From Prorocentrum cordatum (lineage: Eukaryota; Sar; Dinophyceae; Prorocentrales; Prorocentraceae): 64,000 bases of DNA. The notes under the pieces were generated by a model. That model saw only the letters and a program-made list of their open reading frames with translations, was not told the origin of the DNA and did not search any database. The DNA is taken from positions 62,001 through 126,000 of the forward strand of contig CAUYUJ010021135.1 in the NCBI GenBank assembly GCA_963575745.1, written 5' to 3'. The number at the start of each line of letters is the position of its first letter. Within the stretch, counting starts at the first letter, position 1. Of the stretch, positions 3,991 through 49,242 are shown piece after piece. The position numbers and the translations under genes are program-made.

Positions 3991-4361
3991 CAGATGTCGG
4001 GTGGTCGGCTCTGGGTCGCTCCCCTGGGTGTTGCTGTGCCCCTCCCCGCCGCTGCCTCGTCTTCCTCGTCGCCGTCTTGCTCGTCGTCCCGCCCGCTGCT
4101 GATCATGCTCGCGTATAGCCAGGGCCCCAGGTACGGGGACCCGGTTAGTAGTGGGCCCCTGGAGCCCCCAACTTGGCCAGAATCACTAAACCAGGTCTGC
4201 CGCAGCTGCTGCTTTTTCGGGTGACGGCGGTTCCGGTGAGTGGCAGGGGGAGGGGGGGGGGCGCGCCCCCCAGTACACATCGCTAAACCAGGTCCCACCA
4301 GTTCCGCCAACGCCCGACATGCTCCTCCTCTCCCCCGCCCATCCATCCTGCATCATCCCTC

Positions 4362-31934: not shown

Positions 31935-33217
31935 GGGGGCGAGGCCGGGGGGCCCAGGACAGGTGCCCCCACCCCCCATGGCGGGACGGGGGCTCATTTT
32001 CCTTGTGTTGTTACAGGGTTTCCGCGTCCTGGGCCTCGGAGGCCGCCGCCTCCAACCCCCCATGGGAGGACGGGGCGGCCGGGGAGGTCTAAAATATTTC
32101 AGGAGGGCCTCCAGAGGCTCCCAAGACGGCCCAAGCGGGCCCCGAGTCGCCGAAAGACCGCTCCAGGACGCCCAAGATTGGCTCAAGACGGCCCGAGAGG
32201 CCCCCCAAGGCACTCCACGACGCTTCAAGACGCCTCTCCAACGCGCTTCAAGAGGCCGAAATCGTTTATTTTACGAAGGTTTTGGACACATTTTGCTTTT
32301 CCCGCCTTCTCAGCTTTCCGACGCTCCACGACGGCTCAAAGGCCCCCCGCGGACGCCCCAAGAGAGCCCAAGAGGCTTCCAAGAGGGGCTCAAGACGGCT
32401 CTGGAGGGCCCCAAGACGGCCCAAAACGCGCTCAAGACGGGCGAAGAGAGCCCAAAGACGGCCCCAAGAGGGCTCCAAGAGGGGAACTGCGAACCGGAAA
32501 TTCGAGCCTCCCGCCTCCACAGGGCCCCGGGAGGCCCCAAAGGGGCCCCGAGAGGCCCCAGGAGACCCCCAAGAAGCACCCAGGAGGCCCAAATGAGGCT
32601 TCAAGAGGCTCCCAAACAGCCCAGAAGAACCCCCCGTGGGAGGACGGGGCGGTCGGGGAGGTCTAAAATAGTCCAGGGCGGCCTCCAGAGGCTTTCAAGA
32701 CGGCCCAAGCGGGCCCCGAGTCGCCGAAAGACCGCTCCAGGATGCCCAATATAGGCCCAAGACGGCCCGAGAGGCCCCCAAAGGCACTCCACGACGCTTC
32801 AAGGCGCCTCTCCACAGCGCTTCAAGAGGCCGAAATCGTCAATTTCACGGAGGTTTTCGAACGATGTTGGCCTTCCAGCCTTTTCGGCTGTCCGACGTTC
32901 CAAGACGGCTCAATAGGCCCCCAAGAGCGCCCCAAGACGGCCCAAGAGGGCCCCAAGACGGCCCTAGAGTCGCCCAAGACAGCCCAACAGAGCCATCTTC
33001 AGGCCCTCTTGGAGGCCTCTTGGGCTGTCTTGGGGCGTCCGCGGGGGGCCTGTGAGCCGTCGTGGAGCGTCGCAAAGCTGAAAAGGCGGGAAAGGCAAAA
33101 TGTGCCCAACACCTTAGTAACATTAGCGATGTTGGCCTCTTGGGGCCCTCTCGGGGGGCCTCTTGGAGGCCTCTTGGAGCGTCTTGGGGGCCTCTTTGGC
33201 CGTCTTGGGCTTATCTT
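31931..33217. repeat. 10-11 bp periodic AGGCCCCAAG-type repeat, left part
   Basis: A long degenerate array of GGCCCCAAGA/GGCCCAAGAC/AGGCTTCAAG-like words recurring every 10-11 bp. Segments at 32013-32275 and 32640-32880 resemble each other and 50582-50900. The array continues after the copia element at 49243, which therefore inserted into it. Open frames on both strands (Gly/Leu/Trp/Pro-rich or Arg/Pro/Lys-rich) follow from the period and are not genes. Confidence 0.85.
33213..33217. repeat. Target site duplication, left
   Basis: ATCTT, repeated at 49243-49247 directly after the 3' LTR. Five bases is the normal target duplication of Ty1/copia integrases. Confidence 0.8.
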
Positions 33218-33481
33218 ACTTTAAGGGTAGCTCTTTGGGAGATGTTATAGTATCGGGAGCATAGCTCGCGCGCCGTTGCCTTTGGCTCAAGGCACGCGCG
33301 CCCTATTTGCCCGGACACCGCGAGTGTTCGCTATGTGCTGGAAAGACCGATACATCGATCCTATCCTATCTTATCCGTCCATTCCTCTTACTGAACCACG
33401 TCAGTACGATACCGGACGCTATTTGCCATCCGATGTCTACGGAATCGGATGCTATTTGAGTTACCAGGCTCACTTTCGACT
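33218..33481 (+). repeat. 5' LTR of the copia element
   Basis: A direct repeat of 48979-49242, 264 bp, no gaps. It starts ACTTTAAGGG and ends TTTCGACT, so it lacks the usual TG...CA ends. Placement rests on the ATCTT target duplication outside both LTRs and on the primer-binding-like sequence starting at 33482. The region 33273-33291 resembles the spliced leader (separate entry). Confidence 0.9.
33273..33291 (+). promoter_or_regulatory. Spliced-leader-like sequence within the LTR
   Basis: CCGTTGCCTTTGGCTCAAG differs from the dinoflagellate leader by one substitution and a two-base deletion. The 3' LTR copy (49034-49052) has one more change (TTTAGCTCAAG). The sequence lies in the loop and upper stem of a GC-rich hairpin (TGCC...GGCA). 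It may be a captured leader or a leader mimic. Confidence 0.45.
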
Positions 33482-33493
33482 TGGTAGCGGAGC
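33482..33493 (+). other. Primer-binding site
   Basis: TGGTAGCGGAGC begins right after the 5' LTR. It is complementary to a tRNA 3' end reading GCTCCGCTACCA, close to the end of initiator tRNA-Met, the usual primer of copia elements. Confidence 0.72.
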
Positions 33494-35300
33494 TGGCCGC
33501 CCTCTCGTGTGGTCAGCTCTTGCTCTTCTTAGCCTCATACTCTTCGACACGATCTTCGTGACCACCTACCACCCTGCGCTATCACTCCCAGTACGTTTAC
33601 GAGGATCTATCCAAGAGCAAGAAGCGACACGAGAGGTACGACGTCTAGACAACGATATCGGTACTATATACGCTTCATCATTGCGCTATTACCAACCGCT
33701 CGGCAACGAGCCAAAAACGCAATACCTGAAGCATGGGCGGAGAGATCCGCCAGATAGAGCGCCTCGAAGACTCGACAAGGCGCTACCCCAGCGCGGCAAC
33801 GCGCCTAATAACCGCCCTTATCTACACAGCCTTGGGCTGGTTATCTTCGCTATCATATGGTTCGCGCTGGGGGCAGCAATCGGACACATGCGTCGTGGAG
33901 ACAACAGCACCGATGGGCAAACACATGGCCCATATTGGGACCCTCAAGGCAACGTACCTTTCCGCGAGTACGTTTATGAGGTCAACGCATGGCTCAACGT
34001 CACAAGCGGACGCATGACGCCACAGGCCCAAGCGGCCGCCATACAACGCGGCCTAGGTGGCCTAGCGAGGACACTCGCCATGAGGGTACCGCCTGACATC
34101 ATAAATTATGGCGCTGACATCGATGGGGTCCACACCGACCCAGTGACCTACATCATGTTCCTCTTAAGCGTGAAGTTCGAGTTCCTAGAAGATGAGCGCC
34201 AGCTCACTTCCGGCACGCAACTCATCGACTTCCACGTGCCTCACGGGGAACGAATCGACGTCACCCTTACCCGATTCGAAATGGCCCGACTTGAGGCACA
34301 GTCGGTGGAATTTGACTTTCCCCTAACCACGATCTTGTTCCGCGCCTTAGGCGTCGGCAACGAGCGAGCCATGCAACTCTTACAGCCACTCAATCACCAA
34401 ATGCTTCGAACACAACAACTGTATGATGAGTTGCTGGAGAGGACGCGTTCGATAGGCCACCTATCTGAACGGTCTCCTGGTAATATAGGATCTGTGTTTG
34501 GAAGGGGAAGGGGATCTTGTAGTGGAAATTTCTACACTACCTTGACTACTGAAGCCCAGCCTGGGAACGGGCCCTCAAGCATATGGGCCGATGATCCTGG
34601 ATAATCCACTGCTCTACTAGCAGGAGATCGATCACAACCAAGCTGGGCAACCAGCCCTCCTTCTAGAGAACCGCAACCACACCGTTCCTTATGGGGTGAA
34701 TCAAATCCCCTAACCGACGGTGCATCCACCTACTTGGGAGACGAGGATTTCGACTCCGGCACCGACACAGATACTATATCATCAGACGGTGTTGAAGCTT
34801 TAGATTGGTCGGATCTTATGAATATGGATAATGACAATCAGCGTGCTGAACATTTGTTCTGGTTATTACAACAGGCCAAACGGAGGTGGAGGAGGTTCAC
34901 ACGAAAACCAGTGCGTCGTGTTAGGAGGAGGATACGGAGGAGTTTTAAGGGAAAAGGTAAAGGTAAACGAAGTCGTCGGAGGTTGAACGGACGAGGCATC
35001 GCGGCATTTCTCCAGAGGCTCTCAGATGAACAACATGATGAGATATTCTTTGGGGGAAAGGGCCGCGGCAAGGGCCGTAGAGAGACCTCAGGAATAGGCA
35101 AGGGTAGGCGGGGAAACCCGCGAGGTAGAGACGGCCAGGTTCTCAAATGCCATGAATGCGACAGTACCGACCATCTCGTGCGAGATTGTCCAGCGAAGGG
35201 AAATGCAAAGGGCAGATCGACCGATGTCCATTTTGGCTCAAGTGAACCATTCATCGAATATCTGAGCCTCCAGGATTTTGAGGCCTGGGTCACAGATATT
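33486..35300 (+). pseudogene. Copia gag (capsid and CCHC nucleocapsid)
   Basis: The structural protein that packages element RNA. The frame is open from the 5' LTR, so the start is undetermined; the first ATG in frame after the primer site is 33888. The capsid-like part contains YVYEVNAWLNVTSGRMTPQA and ARTLAMRVPPDIINYG. TAA at 34602-34604 interrupts it, and the same frame resumes. A strongly basic stretch follows (RRVRRRIRRSFKGKGKGKR), then a zinc knuckle CHECDSTDHLVRDC (CX2CX4HX4C) at 35148-35189. The frame changes around 35270-35310. At 35228-35242 is a 15-base exact match to the spliced leader. Confidence 0.78.
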
Positions 35301-37243
35301 TTACACTTGGGTCAGCTGTATGGACAACGTCGACGAACTCGAGGCGTATGGTCATGGATTGTACGCGTACTACCTCGAGTACGTCCGCCGGTTCGTTATT
35401 GGCAACAACGAGCTCACTCCCGTGGATCACGGTGCGCTGGGAAACCAGCCTCTTTCTTTCTTCGACTGGATGTTCGGGAACCCAGGCGACATCATGGCCT
35501 ACGAAAGCAGTGACGAGAACACCACTTTCGCCTTCCGAGGTTGAACGCAACCTCCAACCTCCACCTGAACTCCCGCCTGGAAACAGGCCTACCTTGATGG
35601 GAGACTATCCCCAAACTGATGAAGACCTAATAGATATGGAGTCTCAGGCGTTCGTTCAAGCTTTCATTGCAGGTGAACCAGAGATCCCATTTGTACCCCC
35701 TGGTTCGCTTGCTCCAGGCGAATACGGACCACGTACTCTCCTGCAAACCTTCATGAGGATGCATGAGATACTTATCATCGCTTATCCCGAGAGTCAGGAT
35801 AACATCGAAGCTGACATCATGATGCTGCAGGATACCGACGCCTGCGGTAGCTCGGAGTTGCTGTTGGCAGCTCTGACTCTCATTGACAGCGTGCATCCTG
35901 AGGACGTGCAGAGACACCTGATATACTCCCGCGGTGGATGGCGCAATGCTCTGGAAATGGCTATCGCCATGCGCGGTCATGATCTTCCTCCGCCAGGATG
36001 GGGTCTCCAGGCTGTGGGACTGTGGCCAAACCATACGGCCATGCGCAACATTGCTGGGCAGCCTGTGCTCGGCAACGAGCCTGAACCGACAGCCGTGCCG
36101 CCTACCCCGGGACAGCCGAGCGACGCACAGATGCCGGCTATGCAGGGAAACCTGCCTGTCCCGGCTGCGCCAATGGCCATCATCATTGGTAGTTCTACAT
36201 CAGAAGAAGATGACGGCGATGGTTGCGGGCTAGATGAGGATGAAGTTACAGTCCTCATGATGGAACTCAATGGTGAGGAAGAGGTTGACTTTGATCCTGA
36301 CGAGCCTGAAGCACCATCACCATCGGCACAAGCGCCATTTGAGCCGAGCTCCAGCCAGCAGGGAAACCTGCCTCTATTGGCCGATCCACCTGGGATCGCA
36401 CAGGAGCCTCCGTAGGCGCCTCCGCCGGCTACCACTCAGGCTGCTTCGGCGGCCTCTTCTGATGGGAACGCTGGTAGGTCCCGTTCCCATACGCGCGTCA
36501 GAGGCGAGCCACACCCACAGGCTCGGCTTCCTCGTGAGTGGAGGCAAGCTGGCCCGGAAGAACACGCTCTCAGGCGAGGAGGCCAGCTGCTTCCGCATAA
36601 TGACCCAAGACGCCGAAAAGGGGAACACTCGGCCTTCGGCAAGGGCAACCCTGCCTATAGGGACGCTGAGGGTAAAGCCATCCGCGGAGGCTATCAGCTT
36701 GCAACAAACGTCCGCCGCCCTGAAATTGAAGAAGTACGGACCCAGCTGCGAAACATCATCGCGGCTCGCAAGCAGTATAGGCCTCAAGCAGCTTGCGGAC
36801 CTTGTTCCGAGCCGTTCCAGAACCACAGGCCGGGATGCCCCGTTGGCAACAATGAAGGTCTGAGCCCAAACAGGGGCAAAACCCTTCATAAAGAGGGACA
36901 TCCGCCACTTATCCCGATGACACAGGACGAGATCGCAGAAGTGAATCGTCGTCTCGGGATCCTGGGCCACTTGGATCCGAAACAGGAAGAGGAGAAGTCT
37001 ACCCCGGTTCCAAGGGGGGGACTGGTGCCCATGACCCAGGAAGAGAAAGACGCGCTCTTTAGTCTTCCTGGCATGCGAGGAAACTCGCCCGGCGTTTCTA
37101 GTCAGTCCCAACAACCAGAACTGACATCCAAGGATGAACAGAAGGCCCAACGTGTGGCGGAGGACGAGGAACGTATGCGGATAGCAGACGAACGCGCACG
37201 CGAGGCAACTCGCAAGATGTTGGAGGATTCCAACAAGATTTAA
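35278..37243 (+). pseudogene. Copia spacer ORFs of unknown function
   Basis: Two frames cover this interval: 35278-35544, then 35537-37243. The second is interrupted by TAG at 36413-36415 but stays open to the TAA at 37241. I recognise no domain. The first part is acidic (YPQTDEDLIDMESQAFVQAF, later EEDDGDGCGLDEDEVTVLMM). The last part is charged and helical (KDEQKAQRVAEDEERMRIAD). Six perfect GNAA hairpins lie here, each read as an x-G-N-x-P pentapeptide. It could be a gag extension or an accessory protein. Confidence 0.5.
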
Positions 37244-40200
37244 ATGAAGGGGGCTAGGAACCCCCCGCTCCCACTACTTTCGAAGGCTAAGAGTGAAACC
37301 CCGGCGCCGAAGTCGTCTTCGGAGGTGACTCCGAAGGCGCGCTCTCAGGATCCTGGGCCAGATGTGCAGATGGAGGCGCCTCGCTCTGCAACTCCGAGAC
37401 CGCCGATTGGCGCAACTCCTGCACGAGCGTCTGAGCCCAAGCAGCAACCTCAGGACCCTGTGGAGGAACGGAGACGCCCGCCTAGTCGCAGCAGCTCCAT
37501 TGCTAAAAGGGCGGCAGCTTTCGAGCGCACCGGGTATGCCCCTGCGCCAGCTTCGCCTGTGGCGGCCCGTTCCAAAAGGTCCGACGAAGGTGCTATGTCT
37601 AGGGGCACCTGGGTGCCGACGATTAGGGGCAGCGCCAGTCGCGGATCACCGCGGGAAAACCCGCCAGGCGCTGCCGCTGCAGCTTCCTCCTCTTCAGGAG
37701 CCGCAGCCTCTTCAGCGACAGAGGCTCCTATGCGGGGAAACCCGCCCGTGCATCAGCTGCACCACCCAGGGGACACGTCCTTCACCAGTGGGACTCCGAG
37801 TGTGATCAGGGATAGACTTGCTCTGCGGAAGCTCCCACCGATACGCTCGGTGGATGAGGCATTCATGAAGAAATGCAGGCAATCTAACATCCTTGCTACA
37901 TCCAATCACACTCTCAAACAGCTGAGTAAAGCTCTCAGCAGGATATGCAGACATGCGCCAGACAAACTACACAATCCTGTGTGGGACCTGGCTTCCTTCG
38001 ATGATCATGATGGCTGGGTTAACCTCGTGGAACTCGTGAATGATTATCCGTGGAACACAGGAAAATCGAGACACGATGGGTATAACCCAAGATATGACGA
38101 GGCCAAAGTCATCAATGCGAACCTATATGCTCGCACGGTTGACCAACTGGCAGCCATCATGATGGAAGTGGTTCATGTCCGTGAACCAGACGGAGAAGAA
38201 AAACAGCGCCTTCAGTTCAAGGTGTTAATGCGGGACTCTGGTGAGCCCGAGATCTTCATCCGCGCCTCTCAGGGGCATTCATGGACATTGACAGCTCCAT
38301 GGTCGCTGTACAACTATATTGTACTGTGCGACCAACCTGCCGGGAGACCGGCTCCGTACCCCGAAGTCGCCATGCATGGCACTCGGTGGCATGCCTTCGA
38401 AGGCATTATGTGGCACGGCCTGTCCTGTAGACCTGAGCACAACACGAAGAAACAGGGGACAGGCCGGTCGCACATTCACTTCGTGCCGACGGTCCGCCGT
38501 CGTGCCGTGAACAGTGGGTGGGACCCAGACTCAGACATCATCATTTTCGTAGATTGGCACAAGGCCATGCAAGATGGTATGAAGTTCTGTTGGTCTGATA
38601 ACGGAGTCCTTTTGTCCGAGGGAGACAACGGTATCATTGAACCGTACTACATTTCTCATATAGAGGACCTTGCCACGGGAAAGCACTGGCGTAATCCAGA
38701 GTATCTGGGGAATCGCCGGGCGCGAGTCCCCATTTCCGTGATGTCTGCCCCTGACAGGTGGGCTGACGTTGGCAGTGCCAGCGTCAAATACCAATGGTCC
38801 CGAGACCAAGAGGGAGTCGACCCTCCCATGGTCTACCTCCACAGGGAGGTTGGGGACCACTACAGTCCCGCCAAGCTGGGAAACCAGCCTGAGGTCCACC
38901 AGATCTTCATGATCACCGAGAGCGAGGCCGGGAGCGCGGCTCCAAACCGCGCCCCAAGCCAAGGGCCTAGTGCCGTGTCTTGGCAGGCCATCAGCATTTC
39001 GGACTTAGACCAGATAGCGGCCGCTCTGAACCCTGAACAGGTGGAGCAACTGGCGGATAGCTTATATCAGCAGGACCCCTGGGCTGCAGGCCAGGGAGCA
39101 ATGTCCGCCATGGCGACGCGAAATCGTCAGGCCATGCAGGGGAACCTGCCTATAAACGGACTCAGAGCTGAGATGCCTGAGCCGCGGGGAGACCCGCAGA
39201 CGTTCGGCCGCATCTTTGGAGAGCCTGCTCGATTTGAGCAGATGCATGGAAGCCCCTCGCGGAGCATGCACACACCGAGGGGCATGACTCCAATAGCTAC
39301 ACCACCTGCACAGTCACCGTTCGGGACTCCTGGCCGCCCTGCCACGAACGGCACCCTCATGGAGAGGATCGCTGCGGCTAGGGCTGAGCATGGTACAGCT
39401 CTCCTGAACATGATGCCGCCCGGCACTCCAACGAGTCAGCAGGGAAACCTGCCCGGCACCCCAAGCCATCATCGGCCGTCTGCTGGACGAACCACAGTAG
39501 CTGGTGTGCCTGATGACTACCGTGCAAGAGTGGCGGCCGCTGTGCAGCAGGTGCAGAGCCATAATCTGCCTCACCCAAGTGGTCAGAGGTGGAGGCCGGC
39601 CTGGTCCTGGGAGCCTGAGGGTCCCAACCCAAGGGATCCTGCTCGGCAACGAGCCTTCATCCCAGCGTTCAATGCTCACCCGAGCATGGCCCAGGGCCAG
39701 AGGCCACCGCCAGCGCACATGAATCCGCCATTGTACCCTGATGGGTCCAGAGTTCCGAACAAGTTTGTTCGCGAATTGGCGGATCAGCTCCACAGCCTCA
39801 CTAACGTGCGCTGCAGTGACCAATCTATGTATCCTCACATGGCCTTCATGCCTTCACCGACGACGCCAGATGTGGCTGTCCAGCCCACTGCCCATTCGAT
39901 ATCGTCTGGCAGTAGGGGCGTGCCTGATTATATCAGGCAGACATACCACACTCACCAGGCATGCTTCAGGCGAAGACAGGCCGTGCAGAGCGTACGAGAT
40001 CATTCACGTGCAGCTGCACTTGAGTTTGTGAGAAACAGAGGCTCACCTTTGCGAGGAAACTCGCCCGCTGTGACCCCTACCACCTCCGTGCCAAATGCCG
40101 GAGTGCCGGAGGTGCTGGATCCAACAGGGACTCCCCCAGTTGCCTTCATGCCCTCCGAGACGGTATTGGAGAGACAGCGACGGGTATATCCCAGAGCAGC

Positions 40201-40456
40201 AGATGTAGAGGTTTTCACGGGGATGGAAGATACCTGTGCGGTATGCCTCGAAGAATTTCAGCCCAGGGAAAGTGTTTACCGTTTGAGGTGTAATCACTTG
40301 TTCCATGAAGGGTGCTGGAATTCAAATGTGGTGGGTCATGTCACAAATCAGCGTGAGGGAGATCCTCAGCAGCCACCATGTGCTATCTGCCGAGCACCTG
40401 GCATCATAGCGTCATCATTTCCTTGGAGCAAGCAGCGAGGGAGCTGCTGGAGTTGA
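37244..40456 (+). CDS. Tpt1/KptA-like RNA 2'-phosphotransferase plus RING-H2 protein in a copia element
   Basis: An intact 1070-codon frame. Residues ~225-480 match Tpt1/KptA, which moves the 2'-phosphate of spliced tRNA to NAD+. Seen: LSKALSRICRH (Arg236-His237), IRASQGHS (Arg340), HGTRW (His378), GRSHIHF (Arg408), KAMQDGMKFCWSDNGVLL and IEPYYI. The Arg-His-Arg-Arg catalytic set known for Tpt1 is kept, so activity is plausible. Residues 1-220 and 480-990 are Pro/Ser/Gln-rich and disordered-looking. Residues 998-1050 form a RING-H2 finger (CAVC, x14, CNHLFHEGC, then CAIC), typical of E3 ubiquitin ligases. It is in frame with the preceding spacer ORF after TAA 37241, so it may be part of one polyprotein. 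The last 79 nt overlap the protease ORF. Confidence 0.82.
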   Translation: MKGARNPPLPLLSKAKSETPAPKSSSEVTPKARSQDPGPDVQMEAPRSATPRPPIGATPARASEPKQQPQDPVEERRRPPSRSSSIAKRAAAFERTGYAPAPASPVAARSKRSDEGAMSRGTWVPTIRGSASRGSPRENPPGAAAAASSSSGAAASSATEAPMRGNPPVHQLHHPGDTSFTSGTPSVIRDRLALRKLPPIRSVDEAFMKKCRQSNILATSNHTLKQLSKALSRICRHAPDKLHNPVWDLASFDDHDGWVNLVELVNDYPWNTGKSRHDGYNPRYDEAKVINANLYARTVDQLAAIMMEVVHVREPDGEEKQRLQFKVLMRDSGEPEIFIRASQGHSWTLTAPWSLYNYIVLCDQPAGRPAPYPEVAMHGTRWHAFEGIMWHGLSCRPEHNTKKQGTGRSHIHFVPTVRRRAVNSGWDPDSDIIIFVDWHKAMQDGMKFCWSDNGVLLSEGDNGIIEPYYISHIEDLATGKHWRNPEYLGNRRARVPISVMSAPDRWADVGSASVKYQWSRDQEGVDPPMVYLHREVGDHYSPAKLGNQPEVHQIFMITESEAGSAAPNRAPSQGPSAVSWQAISISDLDQIAAALNPEQVEQLADSLYQQDPWAAGQGAMSAMATRNRQAMQGNLPINGLRAEMPEPRGDPQTFGRIFGEPARFEQMHGSPSRSMHTPRGMTPIATPPAQSPFGTPGRPATNGTLMERIAAARAEHGTALLNMMPPGTPTSQQGNLPGTPSHHRPSAGRTTVAGVPDDYRARVAAAVQQVQSHNLPHPSGQRWRPAWSWEPEGPNPRDPARQRAFIPAFNAHPSMAQGQRPPPAHMNPPLYPDGSRVPNKFVRELADQLHSLTNVRCSDQSMYPHMAFMPSPTTPDVAVQPTAHSISSGSRGVPDYIRQTYHTHQACFRRRQAVQSVRDHSRAAALEFVRNRGSPLRGNSPAVTPTTSVPNAGVPEVLDPTGTPPVAFMPSETVLERQRRVYPRAADVEVFTGMEDTCAVCLEEFQPRESVYRLRCNHLFHEGCWNSNVVGHVTNQREGDPQQPPCAICRAPGIIASSFPWSKQRGSCWS

Positions 40457-42117
40457 GGAGCATGGTGGAGGAGATGACGGCCAGGATGCTAGAAAGGCAG
40501 ACAGCTCAGCCCCAACAGCAGGGAAACCTGCCAGAGGAGGTAAGGCCGCCGATGGGGACGGGATACTTCGATCAGCTTATCCCGATGACGGCGCCTCAGC
40601 AGGGAAACCTGCCTAATACTCCTCAGGTGTCTCCCCAGAGTGGGGGTGGGGCTGAGATGGCACTGGACCCTGGCCAGCTGCGTGAGTTGCGTGTTCGGCA
40701 CTTCCAGAATCAGATGGATACTGCGCACACAACATTTATGCTGGATGCCGACAATCCTGAGACTGAGAGTGCGTCGTTTGACCTCTCAGATTCCTCAGTG
40801 GCAACAGCAGCCACAGCAGCTAGGGCCGTCGACATCACAACGACGAACGAGGAATTCGAGGAGTGGTTGCAATACAGGGATCACATCACGAATGAGGGGT
40901 TGCAGGACATTGCCCTTCACTCGTACCTGACGCTGACGAGACGCACGACCCGCGAGCAGTATAAGAGCATACGCGATGAGTATGCCAACTGGCGGGAGGA
41001 GCGTGGCGATCATGCCCAGCACGTGTCGTACTTCCAGTGCATCGACCTGGCGCGCATGGCCGAAAGCAGGTCGCATGCCAGCGCCACGCGGGGTAACCCG
41101 CCAGGGAGTGCGACTGAGCTGCGGGGAAACCCGCCTAACAGCACAGCCGACACTTCAGAAACGGTGAACATCAAGCAGCCGAGTAAGACGTTCTTGGATG
41201 ATGGTGGAAATTCCATCCTCATCGATGTCGGCTCGAAGATCAACATCACGGGCGAAAACACGAGCCGCAAGTTCGTCCAGGCTGCTGAGGCACATGGCCG
41301 TACTTGTACGTTCGAGCCCCGCTCTCGTTTGAATATCAACGGAGTGGGAGAAGGGTCGGCCCCAGCGGATACCGTAGGCACATTCAGTATTGCCTGCGAG
41401 TACCAGGGGTCGACCCAGCTCGATTCATATAAGACGAACATTGTTTCAGGCTGCGGCAAAGACCTGCCAGCCATCCTAGGCCTCGATAGTATGCAGGACA
41501 AACGCACGATCATCGTGCTTGAACGAGGCCAGGAGAAACTGATATTCCCTGGTAAGGGGCAGGTCAAAATGGAGCTCCCCGAGGGCTCCAAGACCATGCC
41601 GACGACGAAGTTGCCGTCAGGGCATCTGTCGATCAGGTGTGATCGCTTTGGAGCTGCGGGGCAACCCGCCTCGAGTTCAAGCAGCACGTCATTCCAGACG
41701 GTGCCGACGGGCGAGCCGACCCTGGCGCAGGAGCGCGAGCAATTGCAGGGAAACCTGCCTCAGGGGTTGATGGAGACGCTCGCCAAGGCCACTATGCGAG
41801 GCGACAACATCGACGATCTTGAATCGTTCGATTGCTTCGTTGCCAGGACACTGGCCCAGCATGGTGGAAGTGTACCCATGGACGCTGTACGGTCCCGCTG
41901 GAAGATAGTAATGGGGTACACTAACCGTGAGTTGCAGACGGTCAGTGACGCTAGGTCCAAAGGCGTGCTGAAACAGCTGATGGATAATCCATCCATGTTG
42001 ACAGCATTTGCGGAGCAATCCGCCTCTGAGGCCACGGCGCGCTGCAGCGCTGAGCTCCAGCATCTGAGGGAAGCCCAGATGCTGGCAGACATTGCAGGCA
42101 CATCTTCTTTATCTTGA
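40378..42117 (+). CDS. Copia aspartic protease region
   Basis: A 579-codon frame, -1 relative to the preceding ORF and overlapping its end by 79 nt. The N-terminus is a coiled coil (AARELLELRSMVEEMTARML). The protease-like domain is at residues ~265-440: NSILIDVGSKINITG (Asp283-Val-Gly-Ser as the D-[ST]-G-[AS] active site, with Val where Ser/Thr is usual) and later LPAILGLDSMQDKRTIIVLE, the hydrophobic-G-x-D motif of retropepsins. It would process the polyprotein. The Val at position 2 of the active site is unusual. It holds six GNAA hairpins; the one at 41656 is out of frame with the protein. Confidence 0.72.
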   Translation: MCYLPSTWHHSVIISLEQAARELLELRSMVEEMTARMLERQTAQPQQQGNLPEEVRPPMGTGYFDQLIPMTAPQQGNLPNTPQVSPQSGGGAEMALDPGQLRELRVRHFQNQMDTAHTTFMLDADNPETESASFDLSDSSVATAATAARAVDITTTNEEFEEWLQYRDHITNEGLQDIALHSYLTLTRRTTREQYKSIRDEYANWREERGDHAQHVSYFQCIDLARMAESRSHASATRGNPPGSATELRGNPPNSTADTSETVNIKQPSKTFLDDGGNSILIDVGSKINITGENTSRKFVQAAEAHGRTCTFEPRSRLNINGVGEGSAPADTVGTFSIACEYQGSTQLDSYKTNIVSGCGKDLPAILGLDSMQDKRTIIVLERGQEKLIFPGKGQVKMELPEGSKTMPTTKLPSGHLSIRCDRFGAAGQPASSSSSTSFQTVPTGEPTLAQEREQLQGNLPQGLMETLAKATMRGDNIDDLESFDCFVARTLAQHGGSVPMDAVRSRWKIVMGYTNRELQTVSDARSKGVLKQLMDNPSMLTAFAEQSASEATARCSAELQHLREAQMLADIAGTSSLS

Positions 42118-42217
42118 AGATGGCAGGGCGACGTCGCCCCCTCGTCGTCTTGCCTGTTGGCCGAAAAGCCGGGGGGTAACAAGGACAGCGGGGTAACCTG
42201 CCTTAGTAAGAGGGCTC
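42118..42217. other. Gap between protease and methyltransferase-like ORFs
   Basis: Includes a perfect 14-bp palindrome GGGCGACGTCGCCC (42125-42138) and a GNAA hairpin with one G.T pair at 42188-42202. The neighbouring ORFs are in different frames. Confidence 0.5.
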
Positions 42218-44065
42218 TTGTCATTGAAGATACGAGAGGCTTGTGCCGACCTCCGCGCCCGAGGTTATATATGTGATCGTATTTCCCACAATGAGCTTAT
42301 GACAAGCGTGGGCACAGATTACCTGGGTGCGGTGATCAGTGGAGATTACACTCTCATATGGATTAGTACCCCGGGTGACTGGTATGTACGAACTCCAGGA
42401 AAGAGAATGGCCCCACATTGGTCACGCATCCAGAACCTGTTGATAAAAGCCAAGAAACTCCGTATGAAGATCATTATATTTGGTCCCCCAGGGTATGTTT
42501 GGAAGTTATCTCCAGTACGTGATGCTCTGGAAGGTCTTAAATTGTCAGTAATACGGATGCGTCTGTGTGATTTCGGTATTCGGTTCAATATGCAAGACAG
42601 TACACCGAGTGGTACTTATTTGCAGGTAGCGCCATCAATACTCATTAGCTCGAAGCTGTGGGCATGTACATGCAAACAGGCAATGCCACAACATGTGTTG
42701 GATTGGTACGGACATTCAGTGCGGCATGCTGAATGGCGAGCCCAGACACGTACTACACTCATCCGTCACCTTAACGACAACATCCTGGGAAGCACCACTA
42801 CGCACGGAAACGTGCCTGTATATTTAAACACATATACACGTACGGACCATAACATCCATCACTACGTGACGACCAACAAGGGAGGACCGAAATGGTCTGA
42901 TGTTATCCGACGTGTTACGATTAACCTGGATACCAATGCGGTTATTCAGGATATCTCAGTTACCGATCAACCAACAGGGTATGATTGGCATGCACCACTA
43001 CCTGCAGGGGTTGCCAACATCAGCACTCGGTTGTATTGGCAACCCGAGGAACCGGTCTTGCTCGGAAACGAGCCTACTCAATCACCACAGAATCTTCGAC
43101 GCGTCATCATAGATGACTGTTCTCTCCCCCTCCCGACTCTGGCGATTGACGCATGTACCCACTCAACCACGACAATGGGCACACAGACCGGCGGACAAGA
43201 TGAGCAAGTTTTACCCACAGAATCGCGTATCAAGCAGAAGGAAAGGCTCAAAGCCGAAAAGGAAGCAGGCATCAAGCTTCGCCGCATTAAAAAGCACGTT
43301 GAAGACGGAAACGATGATTGTGGCGACGACTTGTCAGGATTCGGACAGGATCTTATGGCAACCTGGAGTACTGACGTCCCTATTGAGCTGATAAGCTCCG
43401 ATGAGGACGATGACCTGTTCCTTACCCTCCCCGCATCTATGCCCGACACACACGCTAACATATACAGCATAGTTGCTACACTATGCTATGGTCATAACAA
43501 CTGCGTGGATATGTTGGAGCTTTGTGGTGGTGAAGGTGGTATCTCAGAGCTTGCCTTCTCAAGGGGGCTCTCCTCAGGAGGCAACCTATACAAGACTACA
43601 TATGGCGACCTGGGAGACCCCTCGGTGCAGCGGGTTATAGACCATTGCTTCGCTATATGCTACGTACGAGTTGCCATACTACAACCCAGTTGCCGCACCA
43701 CAGGACCACCATCCTACTACAACTACAAAGTCAATTACAACACTTGGGAACAGCACCACAAATAATATTTACCACGCACAACTTATTGTGGTAAAATTGC
43801 TGTAACCCAAGATGACGCTCTGAGGTGGTTTATACGCGAACAACCTACAGGAACATGGGTGGATGATATCTCCCCATGGAAGAAACTTGCCAACCGACTA
43901 CACATTACAACCGTACGCATTGATCAATGTGCTACGGGACTCAAAGATACGGCTGGTGACTATATTAAGAAGCCGACAAATATCACCAGCAACGACGAGA
44001 CAATTCTTAAACCCTTTGAGCGACTCAAATGCAACGGTCAGCATGTGCACGCAGCCGTGCAATAA
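42218..44065 (+). pseudogene. Methyltransferase-like module before the integrase
   Basis: One frame broken by TAA at 43763-43765. The C-terminal part has MLELCGGEGGISELAFSRGL, which fits the E/D-L-x-x-G-x-G-G SAM-binding motif of C5 cytosine methyltransferases. It then has VAILQPSCRTTGPPSYYN, a Pro-Ser-Cys in the place of the catalytic Pro-Cys loop. After the stop come REQPTGTWVDDISPW and DQCATGLKDTAGDYIKKPTN, which continue the same module. The first 300 residues (DLRARGYICDRISHNELMTS, IIIFGPPGYVWKL) have alpha/beta character. DNA methyltransferases captured by retrotransposons are known from dinoflagellates. This one is degenerate at the catalytic loop, so enzymatic activity is uncertain. 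Confidence 0.55.
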
Positions 44066-46466
44066 AGAGCTTTCACTGGCACAAAAATACACTCGACGAC
44101 TGCAGTCTGCCTTCGTGGAAGCCGTCTATCTGGCGAAAGCCATTGATACTACGCGCGGAAACGCGCCTATAAGTACCGCACATGCTTACCCTGCAGACCT
44201 TCCCGATCAAGCTGAACCAGGCGAAGGTATGAGACGCATCGGTGATCGTATCATCCCAAAGGTGGCCACTTGCCCGGCATGCATCGACAACGTCCGAAAG
44301 GACAGTCCTAGCCATAACAGAGACCCTACGCAGTGTAAATATCATGATTCCATCTCTGTATATTGGCCATGTCCCGCATGCCAGAGGGATCTTACGAGAA
44401 GCAAGGGTGTTAAGAACCACCTCGATACCGAACCTGGTAAATGTCGTTTTGCTGAACCATTGAAACTTCCAGACGATGACGACCCCGAAGGCAAAACCGT
44501 GCCAGCTTGGTGGAAACCCTTACCTAAACCTGGTGAGGGCCAAGCTTCAGCTTCAGGTGGCCGCCAAGGCGCACGCGCCAGGCCACCGCGACCACGATCC
44601 TTCGGTAACGTCGATCCGACATCTGGTGCCAGCAGTTACGACATGCTACGAGACGCCCCCGAGCGTGGAAACACGCCTTCCGCGTCCTCTAGCGAAGCGC
44701 CACAGGTAGCGGCCCGTCGCGGCCGCCTACAAGGCGTACCACCACCTCCAGATGCAGTCAATGCAGGGGACCAAATACGGAGAGCTACCAGGAACCCTCT
44801 TGCCTCCACCGGCTCTGGGGCTCCACGACTACCCGACTGGGCGAGACTCGACATCCAACACAGTCTACAAAGTCTCCGTAGTCACGAACCTCATGTCGTG
44901 GAAAAGGAACTCCGAAAACTGCATCTGCGATGGCATCATGCGAAGGAACCTAAGATGAGGCTAATCCTCGACAAAGTGGGGCTGGATAGCGTTCGACTGA
45001 ACATGATCAAGGAAGTTTGCGACACCTGTCGGGAATGCAGAGCATGGGAACGTCCAGGAAACTCAACATTACCCTCGGTGAGCCTTCCCGGTAAGTGGCT
45101 CGACGGAGGCGAAATGGACCTCATGTTCTACAAGAAACGGATCATATTCCACAGTATGGATCGTTGTATTCGCCCGGCAGCAGGCCTAGAAATTTCCGAC
45201 AGAGAACGTGACGCTATCCTTGACGCCTACCACTACTGCTGGATTGCCGATCGCGGACCCTTCAAAGTCTTATACTCAGACGGAGAAGGCGCCCTGAACA
45301 ATGATGCCGCTAAAGCCATGATAGCCAATAAGGGCACGGAACTTCGTATCCGAGCACCTGGCCAACACGCGACTTCAATTGAGTCACGAAACGGCATTCT
45401 CAGAGGCGTCCTCCACATGATTGAGGAAGAACTGAATAGACACAACATCCCTGTTGTATTCACTAGAGTATTGGCGGAAGGCATCTTCGTTACTAATGCT
45501 TTTACATTTTATAACGGAGTATCGCCATACCAAGCACACACAGGACGTCAGCCCTCCTTTCTCCCTGATCTCGACACCCTTGACTTTCCCAAGGGACCCG
45601 AGACTTCAGGACACGAACGAGAACGTCGTGTGAGGGAAGTCAGCCTAGAAGCCATAACTCAGGCCACTGTTGTGGCCAAGACAAATCGGGCTCTTAGGGC
45701 TAAAACGACTCCTGATGGTGCTCGCCTTCACTCTGCAGGGGATTTGGTCGATTACCACCGACCCACTGCCACTAAGGACGATCATGGAGGCTGGAATGGC
45801 CCATCCCCGGTGATCCGCAATGTGCCTGAAAGAGGACATATTGTTGTCAAGGCTGGATCTCGTGAGGTAGTTGTGATGTATCCTGATGCTCGTCACACAC
45901 TATACATTGAATGCCTCCTCACACGAGAACTTGGCATGGATAATATGGCCATGCAAGCCGTCCTTACATATGTGGCACACCTCGGTGCAGGGAAACCTGC
46001 CAAAGTTTTCGGCTATATCCCCGATTACAAGCGAAACCTCAATCTTTCAGACGACAGCAAGCTTCACCCGCGCGTACATTTAGCACTACAGTATCTCGTG
46101 CGGAACTACTTCCGTGTAGAACATGTAGTAGCAGTTAGATTGGCCAAAAGTGTGTCAAGCCTTCCTGCAGTAAAGTACGCCACCGGGTCTACGCTGATCC
46201 ACTATGACAACGGTATCAGCCCGGCTTTCCACTACTACGAGTGTGTGGGCACCGGCCTAAACATTTCTCAGATCACTGGTAGCACTCATTCCAGACTTAT
46301 TCAATGCTTGATTTCACGTGTCCCTTCCCTAGGATTTCACGACGACTTGGCAAAATATCAGCACTCAAGCAATACGTCTGGAGAACACGATTCGCCTGGA
46401 AACAGACCTCTTCCAGACACCCCAGGTGCTTCATCGCCGAGTGAAGGCCGTCTGTCGACAATCTAA
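44043..46466 (+). CDS. Copia integrase
   Basis: Inserts the cDNA into the genome. The frame is open from 43863, but the part before ~44043 overlaps the methyltransferase-like frame. A cysteine/histidine cluster (CPACIDNV, then CKYHDS and CPACQRDL, ending KNHLDTEPGKC) lies first. The integrase zinc domain is HLRWHHAKEPKM with CDTCREC. The catalytic core shows GGEMDLMFY (Asp at 45117), VLYSDGEGALN (Asp at 45279) and ATSIESRNGILRG (Glu at 45381), the D,D,E triad. AFTFYNGVSPYQAHTGRQPS is the typical copia core end. The frame is intact to TAA 46466. The hairpin at 45987 is out of frame. Confidence 0.88.
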   Translation: MCTQPCNKELSLAQKYTRRLQSAFVEAVYLAKAIDTTRGNAPISTAHAYPADLPDQAEPGEGMRRIGDRIIPKVATCPACIDNVRKDSPSHNRDPTQCKYHDSISVYWPCPACQRDLTRSKGVKNHLDTEPGKCRFAEPLKLPDDDDPEGKTVPAWWKPLPKPGEGQASASGGRQGARARPPRPRSFGNVDPTSGASSYDMLRDAPERGNTPSASSSEAPQVAARRGRLQGVPPPPDAVNAGDQIRRATRNPLASTGSGAPRLPDWARLDIQHSLQSLRSHEPHVVEKELRKLHLRWHHAKEPKMRLILDKVGLDSVRLNMIKEVCDTCRECRAWERPGNSTLPSVSLPGKWLDGGEMDLMFYKKRIIFHSMDRCIRPAAGLEISDRERDAILDAYHYCWIADRGPFKVLYSDGEGALNNDAAKAMIANKGTELRIRAPGQHATSIESRNGILRGVLHMIEEELNRHNIPVVFTRVLAEGIFVTNAFTFYNGVSPYQAHTGRQPSFLPDLDTLDFPKGPETSGHERERRVREVSLEAITQATVVAKTNRALRAKTTPDGARLHSAGDLVDYHRPTATKDDHGGWNGPSPVIRNVPERGHIVVKAGSREVVVMYPDARHTLYIECLLTRELGMDNMAMQAVLTYVAHLGAGKPAKVFGYIPDYKRNLNLSDDSKLHPRVHLALQYLVRNYFRVEHVVAVRLAKSVSSLPAVKYATGSTLIHYDNGISPAFHYYECVGTGLNISQITGSTHSRLIQCLISRVPSLGFHDDLAKYQHSSNTSGEHDSPGNRPLPDTPGASSPSEGRLSTI

Positions 46467-46773
46467 TGAGGAACATAATATCGAAGCTATGATGCTGGAA
46501 GAGTGGTACGACGAGCTACGTATGGACCTTCATCCTACGACGACTACCGACGATTATCTCTACTGCGTCCCAACAACCATGCTGCCCGACCAATGCGTTT
46601 TGGTTTCAGCATCTGTGGACGAAGAAGATATCGTATCATCGGACACGCTCGAAGACGAGCCTGAACCTGAGTCTCTCTCTGCTCAACCACACCTGACGAG
46701 AGCTACTCTCTTGACAGTGATGAACATGGTCCTTACGTTGAGTTATGTTTTACATCAGAAATGTCAAAAGTAG
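46426..46773 (+). pseudogene. Copia integrase-RT linker
   Basis: A 115-codon frame, +1 relative to integrase, giving a plausible continuation (LHRRVKAVCRQSNEEHNIEA, then an acidic DEEDIVSSDTLEDEPEPE). It ends at TAG 46773 while the RT frame begins just before, at 46761, in another frame. In an intact element this would join integrase to RT. Confidence 0.5.
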
Positions 46774-47963
46774 TGTTGGATCAGACCCAACTTGTACAGC
46801 TCGACACCGATATGGTCGCAACGATGAGAGTTTATGTTTCCTCTGCTGCTAAACGTGCTGTGGTCGTTAAAGAAGATGATCTACTGACCAAAGCCGACAT
46901 AGCAGCACATCCAAAGGAGGTTAGTGAAGCTTTGTGTACTGAGCTCAAAATCTGGATTGATAACCGATGCTTTGAGATGTACGATTTATACAAAGCTTCC
47001 AACATCATGACATCCAGGTATGTATACAAGTGGAAGTTTGTAAAGGTGGGTACCGAGAACGTTAAAACCATTCGTCTCAGACTTGTTCTTCGCGGATTTA
47101 TGGATACTGAGGCTTTTGATGTGGGAACATTCTCGGGAACCGCCCGAAGGCAATCCCAACGACTCCTGGCAAGTGAAGCGGCATGCCATCCAGAGTGGAT
47201 TTTAGCATCCATGGATATCGACAAGGCGTTCCTCAAGGGTTTGACCTATGAGGAACTTGCCCATGCCACCGGCGAGGAAACTCGCATGGTCTGCTTCACT
47301 CTTCCACCGGGAAGCGCCCAGGTACTTCGTACACTACCCGGCTTTTCATCTTATGACGAAAGCCGACATTGCCTCAGATGCCTCAAACCAGGAACGGGTA
47401 CAAAGGACGCTCCAAGAGCGTTCTCTCTCAAACTTCGTACGACCACACGAGCTATAGGCCTTGCACCGACCAGCTATGATCCTGAATTTGAATTCAGCCA
47501 AGATCTGCTAACGGCAAAACATGTCGATGACATTAACATGACAGGCCTGGAGAAACATATAGGCGACTATGCACAGCGCGTCGAAAAGGTGTTTGGTAAA
47601 TGCAAGCTCAACAAACACACGCATGCGAACTGCGCCGTTCGCTACACTAAGAATGATCAAGGGGATGTGATCATGGATCAGGACGAGTATATCAAACAAC
47701 TACGTTCTATCACACGCCCAGAACTTACAGGAGCGGCGGCCGATGCCAAAGCCACGAAACTCATTACCGACATGTTCGTCAGCTTGCGAGGAGCCCTCGC
47801 CTATGCCCTTCTTACAAAAAAATTGGCTCATGGTATACGTGGTCTCTCTCCAGACAATTCAAGAGCCCACCATTCTGCAAGTCAGACGTCTGAATGCTGT
47901 GACGCGAAAGCTGATCAGCAGCCCGAAACGCATCACCTTCCCTCGGATGAAGCCGACGAATGA
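46761..47963 (+). CDS. Copia reverse transcriptase (RVT_2 type)
   Basis: An RNA-directed DNA polymerase. Visible motifs: TSRYVYKWKFVKVG (the fingers motif of copia RTs), LASMDIDKAFLKG (motif A), LKPGTGTKDAPRAFSLKL (motif B) and LTAKHVDDINMTG (motif C, catalytic Asp-Asp at 47526-47531, with His for the usual Tyr). The reading is true RT to about 47822. Past an A7 run (47816-47822) the homologous sequence lies in the next frame, so residues after that point are spurious. Confidence 0.88.
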   Translation: MSKVVLDQTQLVQLDTDMVATMRVYVSSAAKRAVVVKEDDLLTKADIAAHPKEVSEALCTELKIWIDNRCFEMYDLYKASNIMTSRYVYKWKFVKVGTENVKTIRLRLVLRGFMDTEAFDVGTFSGTARRQSQRLLASEAACHPEWILASMDIDKAFLKGLTYEELAHATGEETRMVCFTLPPGSAQVLRTLPGFSSYDESRHCLRCLKPGTGTKDAPRAFSLKLRTTTRAIGLAPTSYDPEFEFSQDLLTAKHVDDINMTGLEKHIGDYAQRVEKVFGKCKLNKHTHANCAVRYTKNDQGDVIMDQDEYIKQLRSITRPELTGAAADAKATKLITDMFVSLRGALAYALLTKKLAHGIRGLSPDNSRAHHSASQTSECCDAKADQQPETHHLPSDEADE

Positions 47964-48597
47964 AGTTGACATCCACAGCGATTCGGGGTATCGGAAGCTT
48001 ACCGGGGAGGAGGATGATGAGACCAAGGGCTACGGCATACGCGGGGCTAATGTACCACGGCGAGGAAACTCGCTTCAAGGCAAGTCCGTCGTTCACCTCT
48101 GTGACGGACTATGCAAATCACACCGACTGCAGGTGAGGTCCAGCTATGCTGCGGAGGCACTCGCAGCTGCGCATATCCTCGATGAGTGTTACCCTACGCT
48201 CATCACTCTCCACGAGCTTAAGGCAGGAGCTCTGACTCCACGACAACTACGAGATATGCGTGAAGTTGGAGGCCTAGCTATCAAAGTCTCTCTTACCATA
48301 GACGCCGAGTCCGTTTATAAATCATTATCAAGCAGGGATCTTAAGATACCGACAGAACGGACTCTGCTTGGACATAGCAGTTGGATACGTGAGCTCATGG
48401 ATATAGGTATAGTACATAACGTGCAGTGGTGTGATACTAGGGATATGACCGCAGACGGGCGTACAAAGGGAAGCATCGATCGGGAGCTGCTTCTGGAAGT
48501 GATGTCAGGCACTCAGTCATTCAAGTATGACGTGAAGCAGTTTGTTCCGTTTCGGGGTCCCGAGGACAGAAACAAACCCAAATCTAATCAATTTTAG
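47812..48597 (+). CDS. Copia RNase H domain
   Basis: Degrades RNA of the replication hybrid. The frame is +1 relative to RT. It begins with WLMVYVVSLQTIQEPTILQV (connection), then EVDIHSDSGYRK (Asp), VRSSYAAEALAAAHI (Glu), LTIDAESVYKSL (Asp) and TRDMTADGRTKG (Asp), the full copia RNase H set. It ends VPFRGPEDRN and TAG at 48597. Loss of one A from the upstream A7 run would join it to RT. Confidence 0.86.
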   Translation, partial: LQKNWLMVYVVSLQTIQEPTILQVRRLNAVTRKLISSPKRITFPRMKPTNEVDIHSDSGYRKLTGEEDDETKGYGIRGANVPRRGNSLQGKSVVHLCDGLCKSHRLQVRSSYAAEALAAAHILDECYPTLITLHELKAGALTPRQLRDMREVGGLAIKVSLTIDAESVYKSLSSRDLKIPTERTLLGHSSWIRELMDIGIVHNVQWCDTRDMTADGRTKGSIDRELLLEVMSGTQSFKYDVKQFVPFRGPEDRNKPKSNQF

Positions 48598-48978
48598 TCT
48601 GTCCTTGTTGCCCCCCGCGGTCCAATTTGCCAGCATGGGCGCCTACTACAGAGGCGCCCTTCTAGTTGTTCGGAAACGAGCCTTACATTTCACGCCTGGC
48701 AACGAGCCGGCCTTATATGACTCAGGCTCTTTGCCTTAATACATATTTGCTCGGTGAGGTATGGCCCGTTTGGCTTACCTCTAACTGAGCCGATAGCCCT
48801 TCATCACTCGAAGGGGCGATCTTGTATTTGCGTGAAATGCTTTGCGAGGAAACTCGCCTTACAGTCTGGTGTTAGGCCAGACTGTACACATTGTTTTCTT
48901 TCTTGCAAACAGTTGTGCGCGCGGCCTTTGTAGAGCCTAACGGCTGCGCGGCTATGCTCTCCGTCTCCTCCCCTCCCG
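48598..48978 (+). other. Copia 3' noncoding region
   Basis: Holds one perfect GNAA hairpin (48844-48858), two imperfect ones (48668 and 48694) and a separate perfect 9-bp hairpin, ACAGTCTGG/CCAGACTGT (48861-48869 and 48877-48885). Just before the 3' LTR is a pyrimidine run (CTCTCCGTCTCCTCCCCTCC) where a purine tract would be expected. Confidence 0.7.
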
Positions 48979-49242
48979 ATTTTAAGGGTAGCTCTTTGGG
49001 AGATGTTATAGTATCGGGAGCATAGCTCGCGCGCCGTTGCCTTTAGCTCAAGGCACGCGCGCCCTATTTGCCCGGACACCGCGAGTGTTCGCTATGTGCT
49101 GGAAAGACCGATGCATCGATCTTATCCTATCTTATCCGTCCATTCCTCTTACTGAACCACGTCAGTACGATACCGGACGCTATTTGCCATCCGATGTCTA
49201 CGGAATCGGATGCTATTTGAGTTACCAGGCTCACTTTCGACT
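48979..49242 (+). repeat. 3' LTR of the copia element
   Basis: Same length as the 5' LTR and differing at four positions by eye (second base, one in the spliced-leader-like part, two in the ATACATCGATCC segment). Followed at 49243-49247 by the ATCTT target duplication. Confidence 0.9.

Follow-up and report, generated by a model that had tools for sequence, protein, structure and literature searches.

The subject of this study is a family of small hairpins in one copia-type long terminal repeat (LTR) retrotransposon of about 16 kb, which spans positions 33220-49242 (plus strand) in a stretch of 64,000 nucleotides from the dinoflagellate Prorocentrum cordatum (contig CAUYUJ010021135.1; the whole stretch is called the window, and all positions refer to it). 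The element has 44 hairpin sites, typically with a stem of five base pairs and a GNRA-like tetraloop, and these hairpins are a conserved RNA-level element on the sense strand. That they are not merely the trace of a peptide motif follows from the conservation of the stems in related copies, the restriction to the sense strand, a genome-wide bias towards paired stems and paired changes within the stems.

Number of hairpins and chance expectation

A pattern search of the whole window with GCNNGGNAACNNGC gave 34 matches on the plus strand and none on the minus strand, all within 33698-48857 and thus inside the retrotransposon. The stems of 31 matches are fully complementary, and the middle part of the stem takes nine different values. 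Dinucleotide shuffles of the element (n = 200) produced 16 motifs in total and a single paired one, which is 0.005 per shuffle. When the right halves were re-dealt among the 34 matches, 5.2 were paired on average and 15 at most in 100,000 trials. In synonymous-codon shuffles of the open reading frame (ORF) segments (n = 300), the comparison that had been set beforehand as the point of refutation, we found 3.6 motifs (maximum 9) versus 28 observed, and 1.8 paired motifs (maximum 6) versus 27 observed. Chance or base composition is rejected by these three controls. Codon bias or a peptide motif as sole cause is likewise rejected by the codon shuffles, by the copies in other frames and by the conservation of the stems of these copies. 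The covariation score is 0.544, compared with 0.095 after shuffling (0 of 500 shuffles reached the observed score), and 98.9% of the cells are paired; two of the five stem pairs vary, each with changes on both sides in the pair-count analysis.

The preliminary description of this stretch agrees with most of these results. Its nine middle-stem values, its chance expectation of about 0.004 copies, its five in-ORF copies in other frames, the sense orientation of all copies and its view that protein selection does not suffice were recovered here. The family it described is real, but the count of perfect copies is 31 of 34 matches and not 30, and the last hairpin ends at 48857 instead of 48859. It had also placed one copy in the 3' noncoding stretch, but three sites are found there (48668, 48694 and 48844), and in the window only the one at 48844 is perfect.

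A stem search by loop size found 67 stems with a loop of four nucleotides, where 16 were expected. Loops of three and of five to eight nucleotides gave 21-30 stems versus 14-17 expected, about twofold at six and eight, and among the four commonest loop sequences shown for these sizes none was repeated more than twice. In a context of 164 nucleotides the hairpins fold with a mean probability of 0.81, and 26 of 31 exceed 0.5. Rfam gave no match at gathering score in the window. Relaxed rules together with related copies (other loops, other closing or outer pairs, lesions) added ten sites to the 34 matches.

Conservation among related copies

We compared the window with 12 related copies from the same assembly (4,128,499,153 bases in 21,875 contigs), which were fetched in pieces and are 73-95% identical by piece. 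Because these copies were chosen from the first listed matches of one hairpin, they carry hairpins by construction. Divergence was counted as differences from the window over 42 sites. The stems diverge at 87 of 4721 positions (1.8%), the near flanks at 4048 of 33728 (12.0%) and the remaining internal region at 10.8%. This difference is even larger at third codon positions in the common frame, with 18 of 1058 (1.7%) in stems and 1433 of 6829 (21.0%) in flanks. Stems in alternative frames diverge at 13 of 1022 positions, and those in the 3' noncoding part at 15 of 335 (4.5%, including a lesion of the window) versus 407 of 3485 (11.7%) in their surroundings. A stem divergence of at most 0.02 is found at 34 of 44 sites (77%, one site being without data) versus 9.4% of 14,158 equally shaped controls. 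The base 3' of the hairpin drifts nearly at the rate of the flanks (9.7%).

In 467 aligned loop rows the first position is G in 456 and the fourth is A in 454. The third is A in 395, G in 40, C in 29 and T in 3, and the second is free, having diverged in 47 of 472 cases at all sites (10.0%) and in 37 of 265 (14.0%) in the common frame, where it is also a third codon position. The loops are therefore GNRA-like with some GNNA. Each of the copies has 17-36 sense hairpins (the lowest number belongs to a partly covered copy) and no antisense hairpin.

Watson-Crick changes on both sides of the stem occur at 35436 (three copies), 37075 (two) and 40518 (two). At 33737 the closing pair varies as well: the window and three copies have A-T, and the eight remaining aligned copies have G-C. 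Five copies have a damaged hairpin at 33791, and all of them have a perfect one at 33737, 54 nucleotides away, which suggests, although the data are few, that turnover between these two sites keeps the local number of hairpins. In related elements, the comparison that the preliminary description had named as a possible refutation, most stems are retained although the surrounding sequence drifts, and paired stem substitutions are present.

The protein P0019, 68-85% identical by piece, allows stems to be deduced from its residues. At the same sites R-GN-A of the window is replaced by R-GD-T and R-GN-T by H-GD-V, which implies paired codon changes. The stems at L-GN-E and P-GN-R are kept with D replacing N, and the D implies a GNGA loop. 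All seven xGDxP sites of P0019 have stem-compatible residues. Among 33 proteins, 57 of 96 peptides are stem-compatible, where permutation gives 24.4 on average and 42 at most in 20,000 trials, after 34 of 130 instances had been dropped by a hand-made list of conserved-domain motifs. In a less selective version with 21 aligned rows, 49 of 138 are compatible versus 26.1 (maximum 43 of 5000); here 124 conserved-site instances, 34 of them compatible, were set aside. When all sites are counted raw, the compatible share is as high around G-T as around G-D, which we attribute to conserved domain sites. Such peptides are few or absent in several relatives (P0001, P0005, P0006 and P0009).

Genome-wide distribution and distant relatives

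Searching the assembly with a pairing control, as had been proposed, showed the same preference. The paired 14-mer GCAGGGAAACCTGC occurs 5,935 times versus 91 for its reversed control, while the mispaired GCAGGGAAACTCGC occurs 30 times versus 17 for its control. Each of the first eight loci matches the element, L001 at the protein level and the other seven at the DNA level. Eight lone matches were inspected (L001 with L033, and L034-L040); seven resemble proteins of the family and L039 matched nothing in the comparison set. Most of the lone matches belong to distant relatives, whose GNNA hairpins are fewer and lie elsewhere; L037 has in addition a hairpin on the opposite strand. L035-L038 share the form GCAAG-GGCA/GGTA-CTTGC near one place, and CCTTG-GNAA-CAAGG is found at another place in L001, L036 and L038; both are GNNA hairpins whose stems differ from those of the window. 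No relatives were confirmed in the viral_contigs and genome_contigs collections.

Distant proteins contain palindromic peptides, namely D-P-G-N/D-R-I in P0020 (six copies and two near-copies) and V/M-H-G-N-V-H in P0015. These peptides hint at other versions of the hairpin.

The hairpin sites

All sites are on the plus strand and were identified by the strict or relaxed search of the window and by alignment to the related copies. The most frequent form among the strict matches is GCAGG-GAAA-CCTGC, located at 36142..36155, 36358..36371 (with a GAGA loop in 7 of 11 copies), 39439..39452, 40518..40531 (GCGGG/CCCGC in 2 of 12 copies), 40599..40612, 41745..41758 and, in another frame within conserved Pol coding sequence and also compared with proteins, 45987..46000. 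GCGAG-GAAA-CTCGC is found at 37075..37088 (GCGGG/CCCGC in 2 of 11 copies), 40051..40064, 47272..47285 (in another frame within the reverse transcriptase ORF, also compared with proteins), 48060..48073 (also compared with P0019) and, in the 3' noncoding stretch, 48844..48857. GCGGG-GAAA-CCCGC lies at 35108..35121, 37732..37745 and 41121..41134, GCTCG-GCAA-CGAGC at 33698..33711, 36067..36080 and, in another frame, 39641..39654, and GCTGG-GAAA-CCAGC at 35436..35449 (GCTCG/CGAGC in 3 of 11 copies) and 38875..38888.

Forms with a single strict match are GCGCG-GCAA-CGCGC (33791..33804), GCTGG-GCAA-CCAGC (34642..34655), GCCTG-GAAA-CAGGC (35575..35588), GCGAG-GCAA-CTCGC (37200..37213), GCAGG-GGAA-CCTGC (39136..39149), GCGGG-GTAA-CCCGC (41088..41101) and GCGGG-GCAA-CCCGC (41656..41669, other frame). 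Four more were also compared with P0019: GCACG-GAAA-CGTGC (42802..42815), GCTCG-GAAA-CGAGC (43060..43073), GCGCG-GAAA-CGCGC (44153..44166, the R-GN-A site) and GCGTG-GAAA-CACGC (44663..44676, the R-GN-T site). The incompletely complementary matches are GCCTG-GGAA-CGGGC at 34559..34572 with one T.G pair, GCGGG-GTAA-CCTGC at 42188..42201 with one G.T pair and the 3' noncoding GCCTG-GCAA-CGAGC at 48694..48707, imperfect in the window and in the copies.

Of the ten added sites, two come from the related copies: GCGGA-GAGA-TCCGC at 33737..33750 and the variant CGTTG-GCAA-CAATG at 36841..36854, whose outer pairs are C-G and G.T (six copies have a perfect CGTTG/CAACG stem). The relaxed search found, in other frames, GCGAG-GACA-CTCGC (34065..34078), GCCAG-GACA-CTGGC (41842..41855) and GCCGG-GAGA-CCGGC (38339..38352, within the Tpt1 domain identified by Pfam). 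GCGGG-GAGA-CCCGC at 39184..39197 is the weakest added site, with at least one pair broken in all four aligned copies. The remaining four have lesions private to the window, in the loop of GCGGG-AAAA-CCCGC (37651..37664) and GCTCG-AAGA-CGAGC (46647..46660) and in the stem of GCCTG-GAAA-CAGAC (46394..46407) and the 3' noncoding GTTCG-GAAA-CGAGC (48668..48681). The stems of the aligned copies are intact there except in one copy at 46394, and such lesions are expected for decay after recent insertion. The relaxed matches 35948, 36053, 40389, 45042, 45172 and 48151 were omitted as weak or, for 45042, as a conserved coding site; 42010 (GCGGA-GCAA-TCCGC), whose related copies are unchecked, was also omitted.

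The hairpins occupy three reading frames and the 3' noncoding stretch. The series starts just past the primer binding site, has about one hairpin per 350-460 nucleotides and extends as far as the noncoding 3' end.

Structure and coding content of the retrotransposon

The element is a member of the Ty1/copia group, as it possesses two LTRs with a target-site repeat and a copia-type RVT_2 domain. The 5' LTR (33220..33481, plus strand like all features below) aligns over 262 nucleotides with the 3' LTR (48981..49242) with three mismatches. Both are flanked externally by the 5-bp repeat ATCTT, at 33213-33217, two bases before the 5' LTR, and at 49243-49247. The primer binding site TGGTAGCGGAGCTGGC at 33482..33497 was read directly from the sequence; as TGGTAGCGGAGC it abuts the 5' LTR, and we take it to resemble the 3' end of initiator tRNA-Met. 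Just before the 3' LTR, at 48958-48977, the stretch is mostly polypyrimidine and not polypurine.

The coding part is split over several ORF pieces. A Gag-like piece (34734..35513) has an Arg-rich stretch followed by a CCHC zinc knuckle (Pfam zf-CCHC, E = 0.0028, under the curated cut-off). The ORF at 37244..40456 combines a Tpt1/KptA RNA 2'-phosphotransferase domain with a RING finger (Pfam E = 1e-24 and 1.6e-8). A protein search with this ORF gave no match at E 0.001 among 8000 candidates, and the literature matches listed contained nothing relevant linking Tpt1 to a retrotransposon. The ORF at 43863..46466 takes the integrase position of Pol and has no Pfam integrase match, while the remote relative P0011 has PF00665 and PF07727. 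The reverse transcriptase (RVT_2, Pfam E = 4.1e-9, above the curated cut-off) is encoded at 46761..47963.

Two further conserved stretches were noticed. The region ELCGG...GDLGDP...LQPxCRTxG is conserved between window 43500-43765 and P0002 and P0012-P0021; it presumably resembles a methyltransferase core, and Pfam gave no methyltransferase match in this region. At 33912-33932 a run of 21 nucleotides, unchanged across the aligned copies, contains the inverted repeat TGGGC...GCCCA and is possibly a second structured RNA signal.

Possible function of the hairpins

We give an even chance to the interpretation that the roughly 40 hairpins are dispersed packaging signals of the element RNA that bind Gag. 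The genomic RNA carries some 40 copies of one cis-element, a 5-bp stem with a GNRA-like tetraloop, in which the outer G-C and C-G pairs and the closing G-C pair are fixed and the two middle pairs are free but complementary. One RNA-binding protein would dock repeatedly at these copies, and the likeliest candidate is the Gag of the element itself, with its Arg-rich stretch and CCHC knuckle. Recognition would use the fixed bases and the loop, and the free middle pairs would fit each copy to its coding context. Many weak sites could then select and condense the 16-kb RNA into a particle, a multi-site packaging as proposed for MS2-like viruses.

Several points weigh against this interpretation. 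The link to Gag is an analogy, the Gag ORF having been compared with Pfam only. Among the copies, breaking one-sided changes (25) and G.U changes (16) exceed both-sided changes (7), counts that are not independent because the copies are related to each other. At the 48060 site and next to 42802, S takes the place of N or D in P0019, and a GNRA loop would be lost there. The x-G-N-x-P frame is shared by 23 of 28 in-ORF matches, which selection on RNA only does not predict; the excess is possibly due to tolerance of linker peptides or to gain in steps of 15 nucleotides. The density is uneven, with 30 of 42 sites before 42200 and nine in 6.4 kb of Pol coding sequence. Finally, the flanks favour folding of the hairpin no more than shuffled flanks do (0.81 versus 0.81), and five of 31 hairpins fold with a probability below 0.5 in the 164-nucleotide context.

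More tentatively, and at somewhat less than an even chance, a whole clade of LTR retrotransposons might use dozens of near-identical GNRA hairpins, distributed over the full length of the RNA, as a packaging or recognition code. Its versions would be lineage-specific: GNAA loops and G-C/C-G ends in the present element, GNGA loops in P0019 and, as the repeated palindromic peptides of P0020 (such as D-P-G-N-R-I) predict, stems of 7 bp elsewhere. Hairpin and binder would co-evolve.

A less probable but serious alternative is the docking of a host protein, or of another protein of the element, that would control export, stability, translation or silencing of the element RNA. Fixed loops and ends with free middle pairs fit any trans-acting binder, the replacement of N by D (GNAA to GNGA) in the xGDxP sites of P0019 may reflect co-evolution of hairpin and binder, and the element also encodes the Tpt1 domain. 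However, about 40 sites over coding and noncoding sequence are many for a regulator.

GNRA loops are classic docking loops, and the tetraloops could dock into receptors within the same RNA and compact it without protein. The loop type and an even spread, which a Kolmogorov-Smirnov test does not reject (p = 0.25), are in line with this. Nevertheless we consider it unlikely, as 18 and 1 exact receptor halves were found but no 11-nt or IC3-like pair within 80 nucleotides, and GACA-type loops, which are unusual for receptor docking, are kept in 26 of 401 perfect-stem rows.

The preliminary description had also considered a tiny mobile palindrome. Its spread within elements, or duplication of the hairpin in 15-nucleotide steps during reverse transcription, could account for the frame bias; P0019 has five extra residues beside the 42802 site, and in L001, compared by eye, one stretch is longer than in the window and contains a hairpin that the window lacks. 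Against this, two sites in conserved coding sequence have equal length in relatives without the hairpin residues. The window has ATGEETR at 47272, P0019 has ATGEATR there, and 13 of 13 other matching relatives have GE-x-ER of equal length. AGKPA stands at 45987 in both the window and P0019; of 12 other relatives, seven have A/S-GKTP and the remainder have AGK with different pairs, and the length is unchanged. Seven of the 44 sites were inspected by eye, and no clean empty site was seen among these seven; insertion leaves the later stem conservation and the paired changes unexplained. The hairpin is thus probably not a mobile palindrome; we regard insertion as improbable in general and keep it as a possible origin of some sites, a few of which may have been gained by a 15-base insertion.

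Slightly more doubtful still is an action as DNA, in single-stranded complementary DNA during reverse transcription or at integration. The sense orientation would likewise fix the strand of the complementary DNA, but the loop rule (G, free, mostly A/G, A) is that of the RNA GNRA fold and nothing else suggests DNA. Selection of an x-G-N-x-P peptide, for example as a polyprotein cleavage site, could explain the prevailing frame and may play a part beside the RNA, but as sole cause it is refuted by the codon shuffles, by the equal conservation of other-frame copies and by the base that follows the hairpin, a C in 21 of 23 in-frame copies and likewise in 10 of the 12 that are noncoding, unassigned or in another frame, so that we attach hardly any probability to it.

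Comparison with known systems and significance

Retroviral psi hairpins with GNRA-like loops (GACG in murine leukaemia virus, GAGA in human immunodeficiency virus type 1) also have a short stem and a G-rich tetraloop in a packaging region, but they are few and near the 5' end. The boxB hairpin of phage lambda, to which an Arg-rich peptide binds, likewise has a 5-bp stem and folds in the GNRA manner; it differs in having a pentaloop, in occurring once per nut site and in serving antitermination. Ty1 is, like the element studied here, a copia-type LTR element. The TIPIRT domain of its RNA contains hairpins for dimerisation and packaging, yet these signals lie in the 5' terminal part and use kissing loops and a pseudoknot (PMC5454406), unlike the element-wide hairpins found here. 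The terms GNRA and tetraloop are absent from the main text of that paper.

Closest are single-stranded RNA viruses of the MS2 type, whose genomic RNA bears dispersed packaging stem-loops that have a loop motif in common for recognition by the coat protein (PMC6281560). Similarly, the element has many stem-loops with a shared motif along its RNA, for which recognition would be assumed, and, like such dispersed signals, its structure is conserved above the need of coding, as seen in codon shuffles and copy divergence. However, the viral signals share only aspects of the motif and were found via a known coat protein, whereas the hairpins described here are near-identical, number about 40 per RNA and belong to an LTR retrotransposon. 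In dinoflagellates, gene-capturing retrotransposons carry host-type enzymes; they belong to the LINE and DIRS classes and encode DNA methyltransferases (PMC5890265), unlike the LTR element with Tpt1 described here. The terms hairpin and Tpt1 are absent from the main text of that paper. A literature search, mostly beyond subscription journals, gave no recognisable description of such hairpins among the matches listed.

For RNA viruses, the case for dispersed signals has been built on hairpins that resemble, in parts of a motif, a site of a known coat protein. Here the sequence alone reveals the hairpins in an LTR retrotransposon, with support at the codon level and from covariation. Dozens of near-identical sites would make multi-site assembly and self-recognition by a selfish RNA directly testable. 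If hairpin and binder indeed co-evolve, this would mark self versus non-self RNA among competing elements. The hairpin would also be a functional RNA element with a very large number of copies, in a protist genome that is huge and rich in retrotransposons.

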